From the NCBI RefSeq assembly GCF_900100695.1, contig NZ_FNCF01000001.1, forward strand, positions 62,001 through 126,000: a stretch of 64,000 nucleotides of DNA. The letters are read 5' to 3'. Shown in pieces: positions 55,004 to 63,617 of the stretch. A model generated the notes under the pieces. That model was not told the DNA's origin and did not search any database. It was given only the letters and a program-made list of their open reading frames with translations. The stretch comes from Klenkia brasiliensis (GTDB lineage: Bacteria; Actinomycetota; Actinomycetes; Mycobacteriales; Geodermatophilaceae). How positions within the stretch are numbered: the stretch's first letter is position 1; each line of letters begins with the position of its first letter. The position numbers were made by a program, and so were the translations under genes.

Positions 55004-55777
55004 TCAGACCCAGGGGAGGTCGGCGAGCTCCCGCCACGGCAGCAGGACGCAGGGCTCCACGCCCTCGCCGGCCAGGCGGGCGGCCACGGCGCGGGGCGCC
55101 CAGGCGACGGGCCGGCCGGGGGTCACCACGACGCTGCCGTCGGCCAGCAGCAGGCCGAGCTCGGCGGAGCGGGCCACGACCTGCTCGGGCGCGGCGAGGG
55201 CCGCGGTGGCCAGCAGCGGCGCGTCGGCGTCCAGCAGGAGCACCGGCCCCTCGACGGTGCAGCGGACCACGACGTCGGCCGCGCGGGCGCGGGCGGCCTC
55301 GCGGACGGCGAGCACGTCCAGGGCGGAGGTGAAGGGGTGCGGTGCCCAGCCGACGAGCCGGTCACCGCGGGCGACGGCGACCTGCCAGGCGAGGTCGTCG
55401 CCGGCGGGGCCGGCCCAGGCGAGGACGGCGACGCCGCGGCGGGCGGCCTCGGCATCGGTGGCCGGTCGCCGGGTCAGGTGCTCGCGCAGGGCCCGGTCCA
55501 GACCGGCGGGCCCGAGGTCGGCCCCGGTCGAGGGCAGCTCGTCGGCCAGGTCGGCGAGGTCGACGCGCCAGAGGCGCTCGTCCTCCTCGACGAGCAGGGC
55601 CGGACGGCGGACGTCGTCCTCGACCTGCAGGCACAGGCCGGGCACGCCGGTCGCGGCGAGCCGGGTGGCCGCGGCGACCAGGTCGTCGAGGTCGCAGGTG
55701 CGGCGGTCCAGCCGGGTCAGCAGGCGCAGCGGTGAGCCGAGGGCGGGCACGGCGGACGGGTCAGAGGGAGCGGCCAC
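55004..55777 (-). CDS. Uncharacterised protein in flagellar locus, 257 residues
   Basis: Not recognised. It is soluble and Ala/Leu/Asp-rich, with segments such as VPGLCLQVEDDVRRPALLVE and a final LLPWRELADLPWV. The GTG start overlaps the end of the upstream small gene by 17 nt, so it belongs to the leftward sigma-like operon. A regulatory or sensory role is possible only by association. Confidence 0.65.
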   Translation of the reverse strand: MAAPSDPSAVPALGSPLRLLTRLDRRTCDLDDLVAAATRLAATGVPGLCLQVEDDVRRPALLVEEDERLWRVDLADLADELPSTGADLGPAGLDRALREHLTRRPATDAEAARRGVAVLAWAGPAGDDLAWQVAVARGDRLVGWAPHPFTSALDVLAVREAARARAADVVVRCTVEGPVLLLDADAPLLATAALAAPEQVVARSAELGLLLADGSVVVTPGRPVAWAPRAVAARLAGEGVEPCVLLPWRELADLPWV

Positions 55778-56105
55778 CGGTGAGCGCGGCGCGCACCGGG
55801 GGCGTGAGCTCGGGCAGGCTGAGGGTGCAGGCCAGCTCCATGGCCGACAGCCGCACCGGCAGGGTGTCGGGGTCCCACCCGGTGACCAGGCGGACCCGGG
55901 CGGTCGAGGACGGCCAGACCACGTCGCGGGCGCGGGCCACGTGCAGCTCGGTGAGCACGTCGACCAGCCGGTCGGCGGTGGTCGCGGGCAGGTCGGCGCG
56001 GGTCAGCGCCTCCTCGAGGCTGGTCGCCAGCGCGTCGCGATCGGCGGCCGAGAGCCAGTGCGGCACGAGGACCACACGGGTCGACTGCTCGTAGACCATC
56101 GACAT
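55761..56105 (-). CDS. Uncharacterised protein in flagellar locus, 114 residues
   Basis: Product starting MSMVYEQSTRVVLVPHWLSA, with a helical middle (DRLVDVLTELHVARARDVVW). The family is not recognised. ATG 56105 is preferred over an in-frame ATG at 56198 because the codons between them have clearly lower third-position G/C and GGGGAG lies about 10 nt before 56105. It follows the sigma-like gene after 98 nt and overlaps the next gene. Confidence 0.6.
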   Translation of the reverse strand: MSMVYEQSTRVVLVPHWLSAADRDALATSLEEALTRADLPATTADRLVDVLTELHVARARDVVWPSSTARVRLVTGWDPDTLPVRLSAMELACTLSLPELTPPVRAALTGGRSL

Positions 56106-56203
56106 CGCCGACACGCTCCCCTTGCGTCCCAGGACGGTCCCGTACGGCTCTCCCGTCCCACTGACCTCATCTATCGGCAGGAGTGCGCACTCATCCATCC
56201 GAG

Positions 56204-57274
56204 TCAGCCGGCCAGTTCGAGCAGGCGGTCCTTGAGCACCCGCTCGGCCCGGTCGGCGTGCACGTTCATGTTGCGCACGGAGGTGCCGAGGTCGGCCGAC
56301 AGCTGGGTCTTGGTCTGCCCGCCCCAGGTGGTCAGGTACCAGGTCACCCAGCCCAGCACGTTGGGCTGGCCCGCGCGCTGGTCGGGCCGGGCGGTGACGT
56401 CGGGTGCGCAGGCCGCGGTCAGGGCGTGCGAGAGCAGCGTCTGCTCGGCCTCGCCGAGGATCTCGTCGGGGGCCTGCGCGGTGTCGGGCAGCAGGTGGTC
56501 CGCGCCGTCGGGGACGCCGTCGAGGGACTGCAGGTTGCGTAGCCCGTTGAGCGTGGCGACCGACTGGGCGTTCTTGCGCAGCACCGCGACGCTCTGGCCC
56601 AGCAGCTCGGCGAGCTCGCGCTCGGTCGGACGGCGCCGGTGCTCGGCGACGAACGCCGCGATCGCCTTCTGCTGCTTGTTCTCGGTGTCGGTCGCGGTGC
56701 GCCCGAAGGCGGCCCGCCCGAGGTCGTGCACCCACTTGGACAGCTGGGTCGCCAGGAACGCGCCGAAGGGGACGCCCTTGGTCTCGTCGTACTGCGCGAC
56801 GGCCTTGAGCACCCACTCGCTGACCTGCTGCACGACGTCGTCGTTGTCGGGGATGTGCAGCCGGATCGTGCTCATGTTCCGCTGCAGCCGCTTGAGGCTG
56901 ACCGGCCCGTAGTGCCGGCACAGGTCGGCCAGGAACTGCGGGGGCAGGTCGCGGGGCGCCCTCCGCCGCACCCCGCTCTCGGCCCGCAGGCCGACGGTGC
57001 GGTAGCCGTGGACGGCGCACCAGGTCTTCACCAGCGCCGACAGCTCGGCGGCCTGGCCGGCGTCGCCGTCGACCCGGTAGAGCCCCTCGCCCTCGTCGAG
57101 GGTCACGGTGACCGCCTCGGGCAGGGCGGCCCGGAACTCGGCCATGGGCAGCTCGCGCTCGGTGCGGAAGTGCACCCGGTCGCGCAGCGTGATGGGCGTG
57201 CTCGCCCAGGCCTCGTCCTCGGTGATGCCCCCGAAGACGAGCGGGGCGGTGGACCTGCGGAGCGGCTCGGACAC
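56204..57274 (-). CDS. Divergent sigma-70-like factor
   Basis: Product of 356 residues. Residues ~130-190 resemble sigma region 2 (DDVVQQVSEWVLKAVAQYDE, KGVPFGAFLATQLSKWVHDL); ~215-235 resemble region 3 (RRRPTERELAELLGQS); the C-terminus has a region-4-like helix-turn-helix (KTQLSADLGTSVRNMNVHAD). The first ~110 residues are an extension I do not recognise. GTG 57274 has AGGAG 8 nt upstream; a TTG at 57316 is less likely. It lies in the flagellar locus but is not FliA, which is at 61416. Confidence 0.7.
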   Translation of the reverse strand: MSEPLRRSTAPLVFGGITEDEAWASTPITLRDRVHFRTERELPMAEFRAALPEAVTVTLDEGEGLYRVDGDAGQAAELSALVKTWCAVHGYRTVGLRAESGVRRRAPRDLPPQFLADLCRHYGPVSLKRLQRNMSTIRLHIPDNDDVVQQVSEWVLKAVAQYDETKGVPFGAFLATQLSKWVHDLGRAAFGRTATDTENKQQKAIAAFVAEHRRRPTERELAELLGQSVAVLRKNAQSVATLNGLRNLQSLDGVPDGADHLLPDTAQAPDEILGEAEQTLLSHALTAACAPDVTARPDQRAGQPNVLGWVTWYLTTWGGQTKTQLSADLGTSVRNMNVHADRAERVLKDRLLELAG

Positions 57275-57399
57275 CGGGTGACTCCTGTCGTCGGGTCGGA
57301 TCTCGGGGGAAGACAACCCACGGGTGGACCGGCGGGCTGCGGGATCGCGTCTCGGTCGAGGACGAGCTGCGAGGTCGTGCTGGGACGTGCGGGTGGCGC

Positions 57400-57927
57400 T
57401 CAGGCGCTGACGGCGCCCAGCACCTCGGACTGCCAGACCGGCTCGGCGGTCAGCGGTCGGTCACCGGCCCGCAGGAACGGCGCGACGACGGCGCTCTCCT
57501 CGGCGGTGGGCTCGGTCGCGTAGACCGGCATGTGGTCGTAGAGGACCGTGAACAGGTCCGAGACGAAGCCGTAGGCGGCCTGGGCGGCCGGGCTGAACCG
57601 GGCGACCTCCAGGCGCGGGCCGAGGTCGACGGCGACGGTGATGCGCAGGACGCGGTCGTCCTTGCTCAGCCCGGCGAGGCTGACCGGCACGCCGGTGTGC
57701 TCGGTGGCGAGCTGGGCCAGCGCGGTCAGGCACTTGCGCGCAGCCGCCCGGCGGGGGCGCAGCTGCACGTGGACCACGAGGTGGTCGGCCGCCTCGTCGG
57801 TCAGGCCGCGGTCGGCGTCGCGGTCGGCCGCAGCCGGTGCCGCGAGCAGGACCGGGCCGGTCGAGGTCGAGCCGGCGGTCCGGTCGAGGTCGACGGTGTC
57901 CGTGGTGTCGGTCGCGCTGTGTCGCAT
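57400..57927 (-). CDS. Uncharacterised protein upstream of the sigma-like gene
   Basis: Product of 175 residues, family not recognised. The N-terminal ~40 are Asp/Thr-rich; the rest looks globular (VVHVQLRPRRAAARKCLTAL, FVSDLFTVLYDHMPVYATEP). GGGGGC lies upstream of the ATG. A motif TCAAGTCG, 11 nt, GCGCAATC at 57962-57988 resembles the FliA-type promoters of this locus, so it may be expressed with flagellar genes. Confidence 0.62.
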   Translation of the reverse strand: MRHSATDTTDTVDLDRTAGSTSTGPVLLAAPAAADRDADRGLTDEAADHLVVHVQLRPRRAAARKCLTALAQLATEHTGVPVSLAGLSKDDRVLRITVAVDLGPRLEVARFSPAAQAAYGFVSDLFTVLYDHMPVYATEPTAEESAVVAPFLRAGDRPLTAEPVWQSEVLGAVSA

Positions 57928-58037: not shown

Positions 58038-58334
58038 TCATGCCGAGGAACGAGCCGCCGTGTCGCCGGCCGCCACGGCGGGCTGTGTGCCAGCTGCGGA
58101 CCCCCTCGTCCCACCCAGGGCAGCGGTCAGCGCGCCCACCGCGTCGGCGGCCACGCGGACGGCCAGCCGGCGGGCGGCAGCGATCTGCTCGTAGACCTCC
58201 TCGCGGTGGATGGACACCTCGCGGGGGGCCTTGAAGCCGAGCCGGACGGTGTTGCCGCGGACCTCGACGACGTGCACCTCGATGTCGTCGCCGATGCGGA
58301 TGGTCTCGCCGATCGTGCGGGTGAGCGTGAGCAC
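58038..58334 (-). CDS. csrA: Carbon storage regulator CsrA
   Basis: RNA-binding regulator of 98 residues. MLTLTRTIGETIRIGDDIEV, VVEVRGNTVRLGFKAPREVS and IHREEVYEQI form the CsrA dimer strands. It binds GGA motifs and in Gram-positives represses flagellin translation until FliW sequesters it. The ~35-residue Ala/Thr-rich tail is longer than usual. GGAGGGG lies 6 nt before the GTG start. No fliW gene is in the window. Confidence 0.93.
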   Translation of the reverse strand: MLTLTRTIGETIRIGDDIEVHVVEVRGNTVRLGFKAPREVSIHREEVYEQIAAARRLAVRVAADAVGALTAALGGTRGSAAGTQPAVAAGDTAARSSA

Positions 58335-58470: not shown

Positions 58471-59358
58471 TCAGCGGATGAAGTCCACCAGCGAGTTCTG
58501 GATCGACTGCGAGCTGACCGTGAGCGCCGCGTCGTAGGCGTTCTGCCGGAGCTTGAGCTCGAGGTAGGCCTTCGCCGTGTCGATGTTCTCCACGTCGCCG
58601 AGCTGCGAGCCCAGGGACAGGGCCACGTCGGCGTTCACCGACTTGACCGTGTCCAGCCGGTTCACCCGCACACCGACCTCGGTGCGCGCGGCCGTCATCC
58701 GGCGCAGCGCCGTGTCGACGTCGCCGATCGAGGCGGTCAGGTCACCCGTGGGGGTCGCGGTCATCTCGCCGGCGATCCGCTGCACGAGCGCGAAGACGTC
58801 GTCCCCCGCGGGGCCGAAGGCCGACGGGCCGTCGACGTCGGTGCGGACGGTCTCGGTCGAGGACACCCGCACGTCCAGGGCGACACCGGACCGGCCGGTG
58901 AACGCGCCGGTCGTGGTGTCGTAGGCCTGGGACGTCGAGGTCGCCCCGCCGAAGACCGGCCGGCCGTCGACGGTCCGGTTGGCCATGGCCAGCAGGCCGT
59001 CGCGCAGGCCGGCCACCTCGATGGACAGGGCCTTGAGCGACTCGGGGCTCTGCGACCCGGTGCTCGCGGCCTGGGTGGTCAGGTCGCGCACCCGGCGCAG
59101 CATGTCGCCCATCGAGGACAGCGCGCCGTCGGCGGCGGCCAGCGTGGTGCCGGCCTGCGTGATGTTGGCGCTGTACTGGTCGTTGGCGGCCAGGTCGGTC
59201 CGGGTCCGCATCGCGGTGGCGGTGCCGCTGGGGTTGTCCGACGGCTTGGTGATGGCCTTGCCGGAGGTGATCTGGTCGTTGAGCTTGGCGACGGCGGCGA
59301 GGTTGGTCCCCATGTTGCGGATGTTGTTGTCCGCGAGGGTCCGCTGGGTGATGCGCAT
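58471..59358 (-). CDS. flgL: Flagellar hook-associated protein FlgL
   Basis: Hook-filament junction protein of 295 residues (HAP3). The N-terminus MRITQRTLADNNIRNMGTNL and C-terminus YLELKLRQNAYDAALTVSSQ carry the flagellin-like coiled-coil halves. It follows flgK after 4 nt and is exported through the flagellar type III apparatus. Confidence 0.94.
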   Translation of the reverse strand: MRITQRTLADNNIRNMGTNLAAVAKLNDQITSGKAITKPSDNPSGTATAMRTRTDLAANDQYSANITQAGTTLAAADGALSSMGDMLRRVRDLTTQAASTGSQSPESLKALSIEVAGLRDGLLAMANRTVDGRPVFGGATSTSQAYDTTTGAFTGRSGVALDVRVSSTETVRTDVDGPSAFGPAGDDVFALVQRIAGEMTATPTGDLTASIGDVDTALRRMTAARTEVGVRVNRLDTVKSVNADVALSLGSQLGDVENIDTAKAYLELKLRQNAYDAALTVSSQSIQNSLVDFIR

Positions 59359-61242: not shown

Positions 61243-61313
61243 CGTGGCTCCTCTCGTCGTCGGTTCCGTGCAGTGCGGTGCCGGCGGTGCGTGCCCACCG
61301 GTCTCGGGGGCTG

Positions 61314-61415: not shown

Positions 61416-62348
61416 GTGAACCCGTCTCGCCCGTCGCCTCCCCAGGCGGGCCCGTCCCGGCCGGCCCGGACGACGTCGACCTCCTCGGTCGACGCGCTGG
61501 TGACCGAGCACCTCGCGCTCGCGCAGTACGCGGTGAACGCGGTCGCGGCCCGGATCTCGCTGCCCGCGCACGTCAGCAGGGAGGACCTCCTCTCCTGCGC
61601 CCAGGTCGCCCTCGTGGAGGTGGCCCGCCGGTTCGACGCCGGCGCCGGCGCCACGTTCGCGACCTACGCCCTCCCCCGCCTCCAGGGGGCCGTGCTCGAC
61701 GAGCTGCGCTCGGGCGACTGGGCCAGCAGGTCGGTGCGCGCCGCCGCCCGCCGGTCCGACGCCGCCGCCGACGCCCTCGCCGCACGGCTGGGCCGTCCGC
61801 CCACGCGGGCCGAGCTCGCCGCCGAGCTCGACGTCTCCCCCACCGAGCTGTCGGCCCTGCAGGTCGACGTGCACCGCGCGGTGATGGTCAGCATCGACGC
61901 CACCACGGGCGACGACGGCGGGACCTTCGACGTCCCGGCCACCGGCGACTCCCCCGAGCGGGCGATGGTCAAGCGCGAGCGGGCCCGTCACCTGCACGAG
62001 GCGATGGCTGCGCTGCCCGACCGCCTCGGCGAGGTGGTCGAGCGCAGTTTCTTCGGTGATGAATCCCTGACCGACATCGCGGTCGACCTCGGGGTCACCC
62101 TCTCCCGGGTCTCGCAGATGCGTGCGCGGGCCCTGGTGCTGCTGCACGCCGCGATGAGCGAGGCGTGGGAGGAGCGGCCGGTGGTCGCCGCGGGCGGCGT
62201 CCGGGCGCGGACCCAGCAGGCCGGCTACGTCGCCCAGGTGCTGCAGCGCACCGGCGAGCGAGCGCGCCCGGTCGCCTCCCGGGCGCTGTACCCGCCGCCC
62301 CCGCGCACCCCCGCGGCGGTCCGCCGGGCCTTCGGCCAGCCGGCCTGA
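61416..62348 (+). CDS. fliA: FliA/WhiG-family sigma factor (sigma-28)
   Basis: Product of 310 residues. Region 2 is EDLLSCAQVALVEVARRFDA with GATFATYALPRLQGAVLDEL, then the FliA/WhiG hallmark DWASRSVRAAARR; region 3 is ARLGRPPTRAELAAELDVSP; region 4 is ERSFFGDESLTDIAVDLGVT with SRVSQMRARAL. A basic C-terminal tail of ~60 residues is extra. GTG 61416 starts shortly before the conserved part. It lies between the divergent flgN operon and fliC and probably directs both. Confidence 0.88.
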   Translation: MNPSRPSPPQAGPSRPARTTSTSSVDALVTEHLALAQYAVNAVAARISLPAHVSREDLLSCAQVALVEVARRFDAGAGATFATYALPRLQGAVLDELRSGDWASRSVRAAARRSDAAADALAARLGRPPTRAELAAELDVSPTELSALQVDVHRAVMVSIDATTGDDGGTFDVPATGDSPERAMVKRERARHLHEAMAALPDRLGEVVERSFFGDESLTDIAVDLGVTLSRVSQMRARALVLLHAAMSEAWEERPVVAAGGVRARTQQAGYVAQVLQRTGERARPVASRALYPPPPRTPAAVRRAFGQPA

Positions 62349-62477: not shown

Positions 62478-63617
62478 ATGGGCATGCGCATCAACACCAA
62501 CACCGCGGCGATGAACGCCTACCGCAACCTGTCGGTCAACGACTCGGCGATGAGCAAGTCGCTCGAGAAGCTGTCCTCCGGTTTCCGCATCAACCGCGCT
62601 GCGGACGACGCTGCGGGTCTGGCCATCTCCGAGGGCATGAAGTCCCAGATCGGTGGCCTCAAGGTCGCCGTCCGCAACACCCAGGACGGCGTCAGCGTCG
62701 TGCAGACCGCTGAAGGCGCGCTGGCCACCACGACCAGCATCCTGCAGCGCATGCGCGACCTGTCCGTGCAGGCCGCCAACACCGGTGGTCTGTCGAGCGA
62801 CGCCAAGGGCAACATCCAGTCCGAGGTGACCCAGCTGAAGGCCGAGCTGGACCGCATCGCCAACACCACGAAGTTCAACGGCAAGGCCCTGCTGGACGGC
62901 AGCTACAGCGGCCAGTTCCAGGTCGGCGCCAACGCCACCGCCTCGGACAAGATCACCGTCACCATCGGCACCGCGATGAGCGCTGCCGGCCTGGGCGTGA
63001 ACGGCGTCGACGTCACCACCGGTGGCGCCAGCTACTCCGACGGCCCGGGCACGGTGGACCTCGCCGCGTCCGCCGCCACGGCGTCGACGATCACCTACGG
63101 CGGCAACACCTACACCCTGGACCTGACCGGCTGGTCCACCGGCGGCAAGTCGACCGACGCCGCCAAGAACCAGTCGCTCATCCAGAGCCAGCTGGACAAG
63201 CAGCTGAACGGCTCGCCGATCAGCGGCAAGATCGACTCCTTCGGTGGCGTCACCATCGCGGGGCCGACCGGCATGACCACCGTCGGCGGCACCGGCTACT
63301 TCGGCGGTCTCACCGCCGACGCCACCCCCGGCAGCGACGGCGGCACCGCTGCGCTGGCCACGATCGACGCGGCCATCAAGACGGTGTCCACCACGCGGGC
63401 CAACCTGGGTGCCATCCAGAACCGGCTCGAGCAGACCACGGCCAACCTGAACATCGCCGTGGAGAACCTGACCGCCTCGAACTCGCGCATCGTCGACGTC
63501 GACATGGCCTCGGAGATGACCGAGTTCAGCAAGAACCAGATCCTGGTCCAGGCCGGCACCTCCATGCTGGCCCAGGCCAACCAGTCCGCCCAGTCGGTCC
63601 TCAAGCTCCTCCAGTGA
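62478..63617 (+). CDS. fliC: Flagellin
   Basis: Filament protein of 379 residues. N-terminal D0/D1 (MGMRINTNTAAMNAYRNLSV, KLSSGFRINRAADDAAGLAI) and C-terminal D1/D0 (NLTASNSRIVDVDMASEMTE, ending SAQSVLKLLQ) are well conserved; residues ~150-280 are a short variable domain rich in Gly, Thr and Ser. AGGAGG lies 7 nt before the ATG. A FliA-type promoter precedes and a terminator follows, so it is a single-gene unit. Confidence 0.96.
   Translation: MGMRINTNTAAMNAYRNLSVNDSAMSKSLEKLSSGFRINRAADDAAGLAISEGMKSQIGGLKVAVRNTQDGVSVVQTAEGALATTTSILQRMRDLSVQAANTGGLSSDAKGNIQSEVTQLKAELDRIANTTKFNGKALLDGSYSGQFQVGANATASDKITVTIGTAMSAAGLGVNGVDVTTGGASYSDGPGTVDLAASAATASTITYGGNTYTLDLTGWSTGGKSTDAAKNQSLIQSQLDKQLNGSPISGKIDSFGGVTIAGPTGMTTVGGTGYFGGLTADATPGSDGGTAALATIDAAIKTVSTTRANLGAIQNRLEQTTANLNIAVENLTASNSRIVDVDMASEMTEFSKNQILVQAGTSMLAQANQSAQSVLKLLQ

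Follow-up and report, generated by a model that had tools for sequence, protein, structure and literature searches.

What does a second sigma-like gene do in a flagellar locus that already has its own conventional FliA? The question arises in Klenkia brasiliensis (Geodermatophilaceae; genome size 4.45 Mb), of which we analyzed a stretch of 64,000 nucleotides, hereafter the window (contig NZ_FNCF01000001.1, positions 62,001 to 126,000 of the forward strand). A sequence-only reading of the window had described, at positions 55004-57927 and all in one direction, a divergent sigma-70-like gene and three genes for proteins of unknown family, and had suggested that they could form a lineage-specific regulatory module for motility. 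The four open reading frames (ORFs) are found there, on the minus strand, and agree with that description in size: P257 (55004-55777, 257 amino acids), P114 (55761-56105, 114 amino acids), the sigma-like SIG (56204-57274, 356 amino acids) and, directly upstream of SIG, P175 (57400-57927, 175 amino acids). The protein families of P257 and P114 were not recognized. From comparisons among genomes we conclude that SIG and P175 belong to a genuine conserved module, in which a divergent FliA/WhiG-like sigma factor that carries a new N-terminal domain goes with a constant partner gene. The module is tied to flagella or to type IV pili depending on the family of bacteria. We observed homology of SIG to the sigma family, a conserved gene neighborhood, co-occurrence with organelle genes and a shared sequence motif. 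The link to motility loci thus stands, and a regulatory action is what we infer.

Conservation of the module and its link to flagella

All 19 Geodermatophilaceae loci contain csrA, P175 and SIG. P114 and P257 occur in 18 of them, and the remaining locus is cut by a contig end. The four ORFs are real genes, as this conservation and their constant order and strand show. Among 80 named loci (79 titled Geodermatophilaceae or their genera, and one unverified Bacillus), the genes that were found keep the order and strand of the window in 79. Some genes were not found (csrA in 3 loci, flgL in 5, P175 in 2, P114 and P257 in 3), and the loci concerned have little sequence on that side, with the exception of L075, a Modestobacter metagenome-assembled genome without P114 and P257 despite 5.6 kb of sequence downstream of SIG.

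A conserved link to flagellar loci, which the sequence-only reading had anticipated, is evident across the family. SIG was found in 98 of 106 family genomes and flagellin in 95: both occur together in 95, SIG occurs alone in three (72-84% complete), flagellin never occurs alone, and eight genomes have neither (Fisher p 5e-10, for genomes that are not independent of one another). SIG is absent from 16 genomes of the same order outside Geodermatophilaceae, even where csrA lies in the flagellar locus. Weak matches in three genomes of that order (G036, twice, G037 and G040) were not counted, as they fall within the matches of a FliA query in the fetched loci.

SIG and P175 in type IV pilus loci

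When 296 genomes from across the class were searched, SIG homologues that align over nearly the full length turned up in six genomes of a second actinobacterial family of the same class, here called f49; we refer to the f49 homologues of SIG and P175 as SIGh and P175h. SIGh is present in 26 of 85 f49 genomes, and a search of the order to which f49 belongs (166 genomes, E <=1e-15) returned it only in the same 26. Across the phylum, 119 of 396 genomes gave matches, and, with at most five candidates scored per genome, no match outside the query's own genome extends over the N-terminal domain as well as the sigma regions. SIG and SIGh are colinear, full-length homologues (hhalign 99.9%, E 6e-36), and P175 and P175h are homologous over their full length (98.1%, E 7e-14), in comparisons limited to ORFs whose length was 0.6-1.8 times that of the query.

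The f49 genes lie among genes for type IV pili. All 26 SIGh loci hold pilA or pilD, and P175h stands directly upstream of SIGh in 24 of them, separated from it by -16 to 43 nt; the two remaining loci have SIGh at a contig end. As far as the contigs reach, the gene order is pilT, pilB, pilT2, pilC, pilA, P175h, SIGh, U239, a gene that we take to encode a DUF4388 protein (the only Pfam match there was a weak one to DUF2802), pilD, U143, a ParA-like gene and U134, where some of the pilT assignments are cross-matches of pilT2. PilB, PilC, pilin and prepilin peptidase were checked against profiles in one locus each. PilC (E <=1e-60) was found in 26 f49 genomes, 24 of which have SIGh, and each of the two genes occurs without the other in two genomes; the only f49 genomes with pili and without SIGh are G740 (65% complete) and G757 (61%). 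Flagellin was not found in the six f49 genomes tested. A third arrangement was seen in G774, a Geodermatophilaceae genome (74% complete) in which P175, SIG (56% identity), P114 and P257 adjoin a WhiG-type sigma gene and pilin-like genes, and flagellin was not detected.

Since SIG and P175 recur in f49 pilus loci, the description of the module as lineage-specific has to be limited to P114 and P257. Profiles of P114 did not match those of U143, U239 or U134, nor did P257 match the DUF4388-labelled protein, U239, U143, U606, U134 or PilD (hhalign probability <1% throughout); with no match among the pilus-locus proteins compared, we regard P114 and P257, within the scope of these searches, as restricted to Geodermatophilaceae. 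The distribution also bears on the idea that the four genes are passive neighbors of motility loci, with an unrelated function. Near-perfect co-occurrence with two organelles in two families, together with the third arrangement in G774, makes this explanation very improbable. As a conserved sigma-like gene that goes with flagella in Geodermatophilaceae and with type IV pili in f49, SIG is a concrete candidate for a regulator, and one that can be deleted.

SIG as a probable divergent sigma factor

The sequence-only reading assigned SIG to the sigma factors on segments resembling regions 2, 3 and 4, an assignment that is borne out when relatives are considered. Among 36 members of the SIG family, Sigma70_r3 matched 26 (best 3.5e-8), Sigma70_r4_2 matched 20 (best 7.9e-6) and Sigma70_r2 matched 10 (best 0.0049), counted at E <=1. 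The alignment used (A3) comprises the window's protein, 11 of the 19 other members of alignment A1, the G774 protein (locus L193) and 23 of 25 SIGh sequences. In an hhalign comparison, the SIG family aligned with 22 FliA-type sigma factors over a span covering regions 2-4 (97.9%, E 3.3e-13). Regions 2, 3 and 4, by which membership of the sigma-70 superfamily is judged, are therefore recognizable at the level of the family. Our best reading is that SIG is a divergent member of this superfamily, closest to the FliA/WhiG (flagellar) branch, and that it would bind core RNA polymerase.

The same searches made with SIG alone count against so simple an identification. Sigma70_r2 (E 0.0056) and Sigma70_r3 (E 0.019) both stay under the Pfam cut-offs and region 4 is not matched; the FliA_WhiG model TIGR02479 is matched at an E of 7.7e-7, which speaks for sigma homology, and with a score of 29.1 bits, which is far under the curated cut-off of 189.6. 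The window's conventional FliA (61428-62348, plus strand) is likewise under this cut-off, with 146 bits. Beyond the N-terminal domain, the AlphaFold model of SIG is of low confidence (mean pLDDT 65, with residues 238-307 below 50). Judged by its sequence, SIG is solidly assigned only once its relatives are included.

The first seven Foldseek matches of the SIG model are all sigma factors, including sigma-28/FlgM and WhiG; their TM-scores by query length are low (0.21-0.29), owing to the poor quality of the model beyond the N-terminal domain. A VIA-align superposition on WhiG (6pfj_A) covered 147 residues (Z 7.8, rmsd 4.8), where the Z value alone may reflect a common arrangement. WhiG was also the top match in a sequence search of the PDB, at a non-significant E of 0.015.

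The better part of the model is the N-terminal extension of about 110 residues that the sequence-only reading could not place. Residues 12-106 are predicted, with pLDDT mostly between 80 and 95, to form a ferredoxin-like domain (beta-alpha-beta-beta-alpha-beta), and this domain of about 95 residues is conserved across the SIG family; the sigma regions 2-3-4 would occupy residues ~110-353.

It could be argued that SIG is a degenerate sigma factor that does not bind promoters and serves as a protein-protein regulator, for example one that sequesters a partner of FliA or WhiG. Region 2 does give the weakest of the family matches, and region 2.4 of SIG is, by eye, unlike that of FliA. Against this, the ratio of non-synonymous to synonymous substitution rates (dN/dS) of SIG relative to three congeners (0.070, 0.094 and 0.101) is the lowest of eight genes in each comparison; it is below 1 for all four genes of the module. 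All 36 sequences share W181, G191 and R192 without exception, and the helix-turn-helix matches of region 4 are significant in relatives. We regard a degenerate SIG as unlikely.

P175, the constant partner gene

The core of P175 (residues ~50-145) is modeled by AlphaFold with pLDDT above 90; the ferredoxin-like or ACT-like alpha/beta fold (beta-alpha-beta-beta-alpha) predicted there takes up residues ~48-140. Foldseek gave no match under E 0.001, and the best structural alignment was to a designed protein (Z 9.4 over 81 residues, rmsd 2.4). These matches of the predicted structure are generic to the ferredoxin-like fold, which is common and uninformative on function. Searched alone, P175 matched nothing in Pfam or NCBIfam at E below 0.01, no anti-sigma family matched over 40 P175 members (alignment A4: the window's protein, 15 of the 19 other P175 and all 24 P175h sequences), and PHROGs gave nothing useful.

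Two identities were considered and rejected. FlgM and RsiG have helical or coiled-coil folds, and an anti-sigma factor of the FlgM or RsiG kind does not fit P175, which has no sequence match to them and a predicted alpha/beta fold. Nor is there a sign that P175, P114 or P257 is FliW, the usual antagonist of CsrA: PF02623 matched none of these proteins, nor anything in the whole K. brasiliensis genome.

A promoter-like motif shared between loci

P114 is the first gene behind a FliA-like promoter motif, which in the window lies at 56171-56200 (minus strand) and combines a -35-like GGATGGA with a -10-like GCCGATAG. Upstream of P114, most genera of the family have GGGTCCAT and GCCGATA at a fixed spacing, and Klenkia has GGATGGAT or a similar sequence with GCCGATAG. 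A like element precedes pilA and U143 in f49. To quantify its distribution, CCGAWA was counted within 150 nt upstream of each gene, with expected numbers from shuffled sequences and with genes less than 150 nt from a contig end skipped. It precedes pilA in 21 of 21 cases (1.5 expected), U143 in 19 of 22 (0.9), P114 in 18 of 18 (0.9), csrA in 8 of 19 (0.7), the DUF4388-labelled gene in 6 of 20 (1.0) and pilT in 5 of 14 (0.8). Counts were small for U134 (3/18), P175h (3/22), pilT2 (2/18), P175 (1/19) and FliA (1/17), and zero for pilB, pilC, pilD, SIGh, U239, U606, flgL, SIG (0/19), P257, flgN (0/19) and fliC (0/15; the 15 of 19 loci in which the best flagellin match starts at residue 1-3 with >=40% identity).

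In 329 kb of sequence from f49 loci, a strict bipartite pattern occurs at eight distinct sites, five before pilA and three before U143, and in 278 kb from Geodermatophilaceae loci at six, all before P114. Genome-wide, GGGTCCA-N15/17-CCGATA has one match in each of 25 of 57 Geodermatophilaceae genomes; of these matches, 22 are on the strand of SIG, 34 to 2,699 nt downstream of it, and three lie elsewhere; the reversed control pattern has one match. None of the nine genomes from the window's genus has the GGGTCCA pattern; they carry the variant instead. The form CCGAWAY precedes P114 in 14 of 18 cases and csrA in 0 of 19; its last letter hides the csrA sites and four Klenkia P114 sites.

Which sigma factor would read the motif? 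The promoters of P114, and in some genera of csrA, may be ordinary FliA (sigma-28) targets, with SIG as a co-regulator or acting on genes elsewhere, and several observations speak for this and against SIG as the reader. The FliA gene adjoins that of flagellin, and the FliA-type promoters of fliC and flgN, which by eye consist of CTCAAG or CTTGAG followed by GCCG (GGCTCAAG...GCCG), have their GG and CCG at about the same spacing as the P114 motif, so that FliA may read the latter. In 8 of the 19 loci (L030, L032-L038), all in genera with fliW, CCGATA stands before csrA, and the motif is thus not confined to P114; csrA, P175 and SIG are all downstream of this site, which might serve csrA-P175-SIG as a FliA-type promoter or might be a coincidence within coding sequence. 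By eye, the site appears to lie at the end of fliW. With CCGAWA completely absent before fliC and flgN, there is no indication that such promoters directly control flagellin. Though GG stands 22-23 nt before CCGA, at the same offset within one base, in 13 of 16, 11 of 15, 9 of 9 and 16 of 18 sites of four groups, this is the offset with the highest count, selected for that reason, and the genomes that supplied the sites are related.

The f49 loci add to these objections. There the strict pattern is restricted to loci of the six genomes that also hold a FliA/WhiG-type gene, five of which score above the curated cut-off and one of which (G739) is recognized by two split fragments. G718 was placed among the other 20 genomes and scores 173.7 bits for FliA/WhiG, more than the FliA of the window itself; scores in the other 19 reach 123 bits at most. 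Passages of PMC8325347 report that type IV pili in Rubrobacter, and sporulation in Streptomyces, are under the control of the WhiG-RsiG-(c-di-GMP) switch, and that WhiG-like sigma factors direct pilus and flagellar genes in Actinoplanes.

Two observations argue otherwise. The -35 element of P114 in most genera, GGGTCCA, is unlike the CTCAAG or CTTGAG of FliA-type promoters in the same genomes, and CCGAWAY precedes pilA in all 16 loci from f49 genomes not assigned a FliA/WhiG, although G718 is among them. In these unassigned genomes the CCGAWA part persists together with GG. We find it rather doubtful that the motif belongs to FliA. A FliA/WhiG factor may also be present in the other 20 f49 genomes, and SIG is therefore the best shared candidate for the reader of the motif, and not a proven one.

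Proposed mechanism and relation to known systems

We propose that SIG is a FliA/WhiG-type sigma factor with a ferredoxin-like domain placed ahead of regions 2-3-4. P175 would most likely dock on this domain and so control SIG, a pairing that is a natural hypothesis only, because the two share the broad ferredoxin-like fold. The SIG holoenzyme would, most likely, read FliA-like promoters of the form GG-N20/21-CCGAWA; the P114-P257 operon is the candidate target in Geodermatophilaceae, and the pilin gene pilA and U143 are the candidates in f49. In this way the module could link a few genes to the motility organelle that a given cell makes, be it a flagellum or a type IV pilus. Taken as a whole, with core binding, promoter recognition, the interaction of P175 with SIG and the output all inferred, the mechanism is tentative and falls a little short of probable. 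A wider view, which we hold with somewhat less confidence, is that SIG founds a new sigma subfamily defined by a ferredoxin-like control domain and a dedicated partner that is ferredoxin-like too, and that an organelle-independent module has been passed between pilus and flagellar loci in the course of actinobacterial evolution, together with its promoter class, and may be the missing motility regulator of Geodermatophilaceae. If this is true, one regulatory cassette serves two unrelated motility machines, and a testable promoter motif comes with it.

Members of the FliA/WhiG family (TIGR02479; sigma-28 and WhiG) have the sigma regions without an extra N-terminal domain. SIG resembles them in that regions 2-3-4 align, in its association with flagella or pili and in the FliA-like -10 element nearby, and differs from them in its low TIGR02479 score, in the ferredoxin-like domain and in the presence of a separate, conventional FliA in the same locus. 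In the WhiG-RsiG-(c-di-GMP) switch, as in the SIG module, a FliA-type sigma factor appears to be used for differing surface or developmental programmes across actinobacteria (PMC8325347, in part). However, RsiG is described in that part as a coiled coil, whereas P175 is predicted to be alpha/beta, and SIG is not WhiG: G774 has a WhiG-type gene beside the module. The same source notes RsiG in 16 of 16 Geodermatophilaceae species examined. Sigma-SsdA of Actinoplanes missouriensis also fuses a sigma factor to a non-sigma control domain and has a dedicated partner, according to the abstract of PMC10733313; there the extra domain is an anti-sigma antagonist, whereas that of SIG is N-terminal and predicted to be ferredoxin-like.

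Residues ~30-98 of SIG also match the C-terminal domain of ABC ATPases in six genomes (E 1e-4 to 1e-6; L141-L146), presumably ATPases of DrrA-type transporters. The matching domain follows the ATPase in the ABC proteins, whereas in SIG it is N-terminal. Pfam gave no model for the SIG-like stretch in the one ABC ATPase scanned, and the likeness is therefore no guide to the function of SIG.

Flagellar and pilus genes are recorded in Geodermatophilaceae genomes (PMC9686282, in part), as are fliA and csrA (PMC8602919, in part). The portion of a survey of actinobacterial flagella that we consulted sought FliA, FlgM, CsrA and FliW among the regulators and lists nothing like SIG (PMC10746217). An account of the Kineococcus genome reports, in the sections consulted, that the motility island contains none of the known master regulators, and suggests that FliA may be under a novel regulation there and in related Actinobacteria (PMC2587704). 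We found no description of a SIG-P175 module in the portions of the literature searched.

Gene models and neighboring features

The start of SIG is most likely the GTG at 57274, which has AGGAG upstream and gives the protein of 356 amino acids; an alternative TTG start, without AGGAG, would give 370. The minus-strand genes are arranged in the order flgN, flgK, flgL (58471-59358, a TIGR02550 match), csrA (58038-58334), P175, SIG, P114 and P257. SIG is thus in the same locus as csrA, beside which the sequence-only reading had put it, and the direct neighbor of csrA is P175. That reading also had the genes overlapping or close together: overlap is confined to P114 and P257 (17 nt, at the 3' end of P114), and the remaining gaps are about 100-125 nt. 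The genes for the FliA-type sigma factor, whose start codon is not fixed (the ORF opens at 61278), and flagellin (fliC, 62478-63617, plus strand) are divergent from the minus-strand cluster and upstream of it. Past P257 are convergent plus-strand genes that we take to be VanY-like and citrate synthase-like.

CsrA of the window has 98 amino acids, with a long C-terminal tail past the conserved ~60 residues; its relatives range from 82 to 123 amino acids by unchecked start codons. FliW is absent from all nine genomes of the window's genus, that of K. brasiliensis among them, both of g6 and the one of g9, though csrA is kept, and is present in the other flagellated genera of that set (g2, g3, g4, g7, g11 and g12). 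In two loci an opposite-strand ORF lies between SIG and P114 (L033, 8142-9638; L035, 9032-10402), which by eye looks like a secreted beta-propeller protein.

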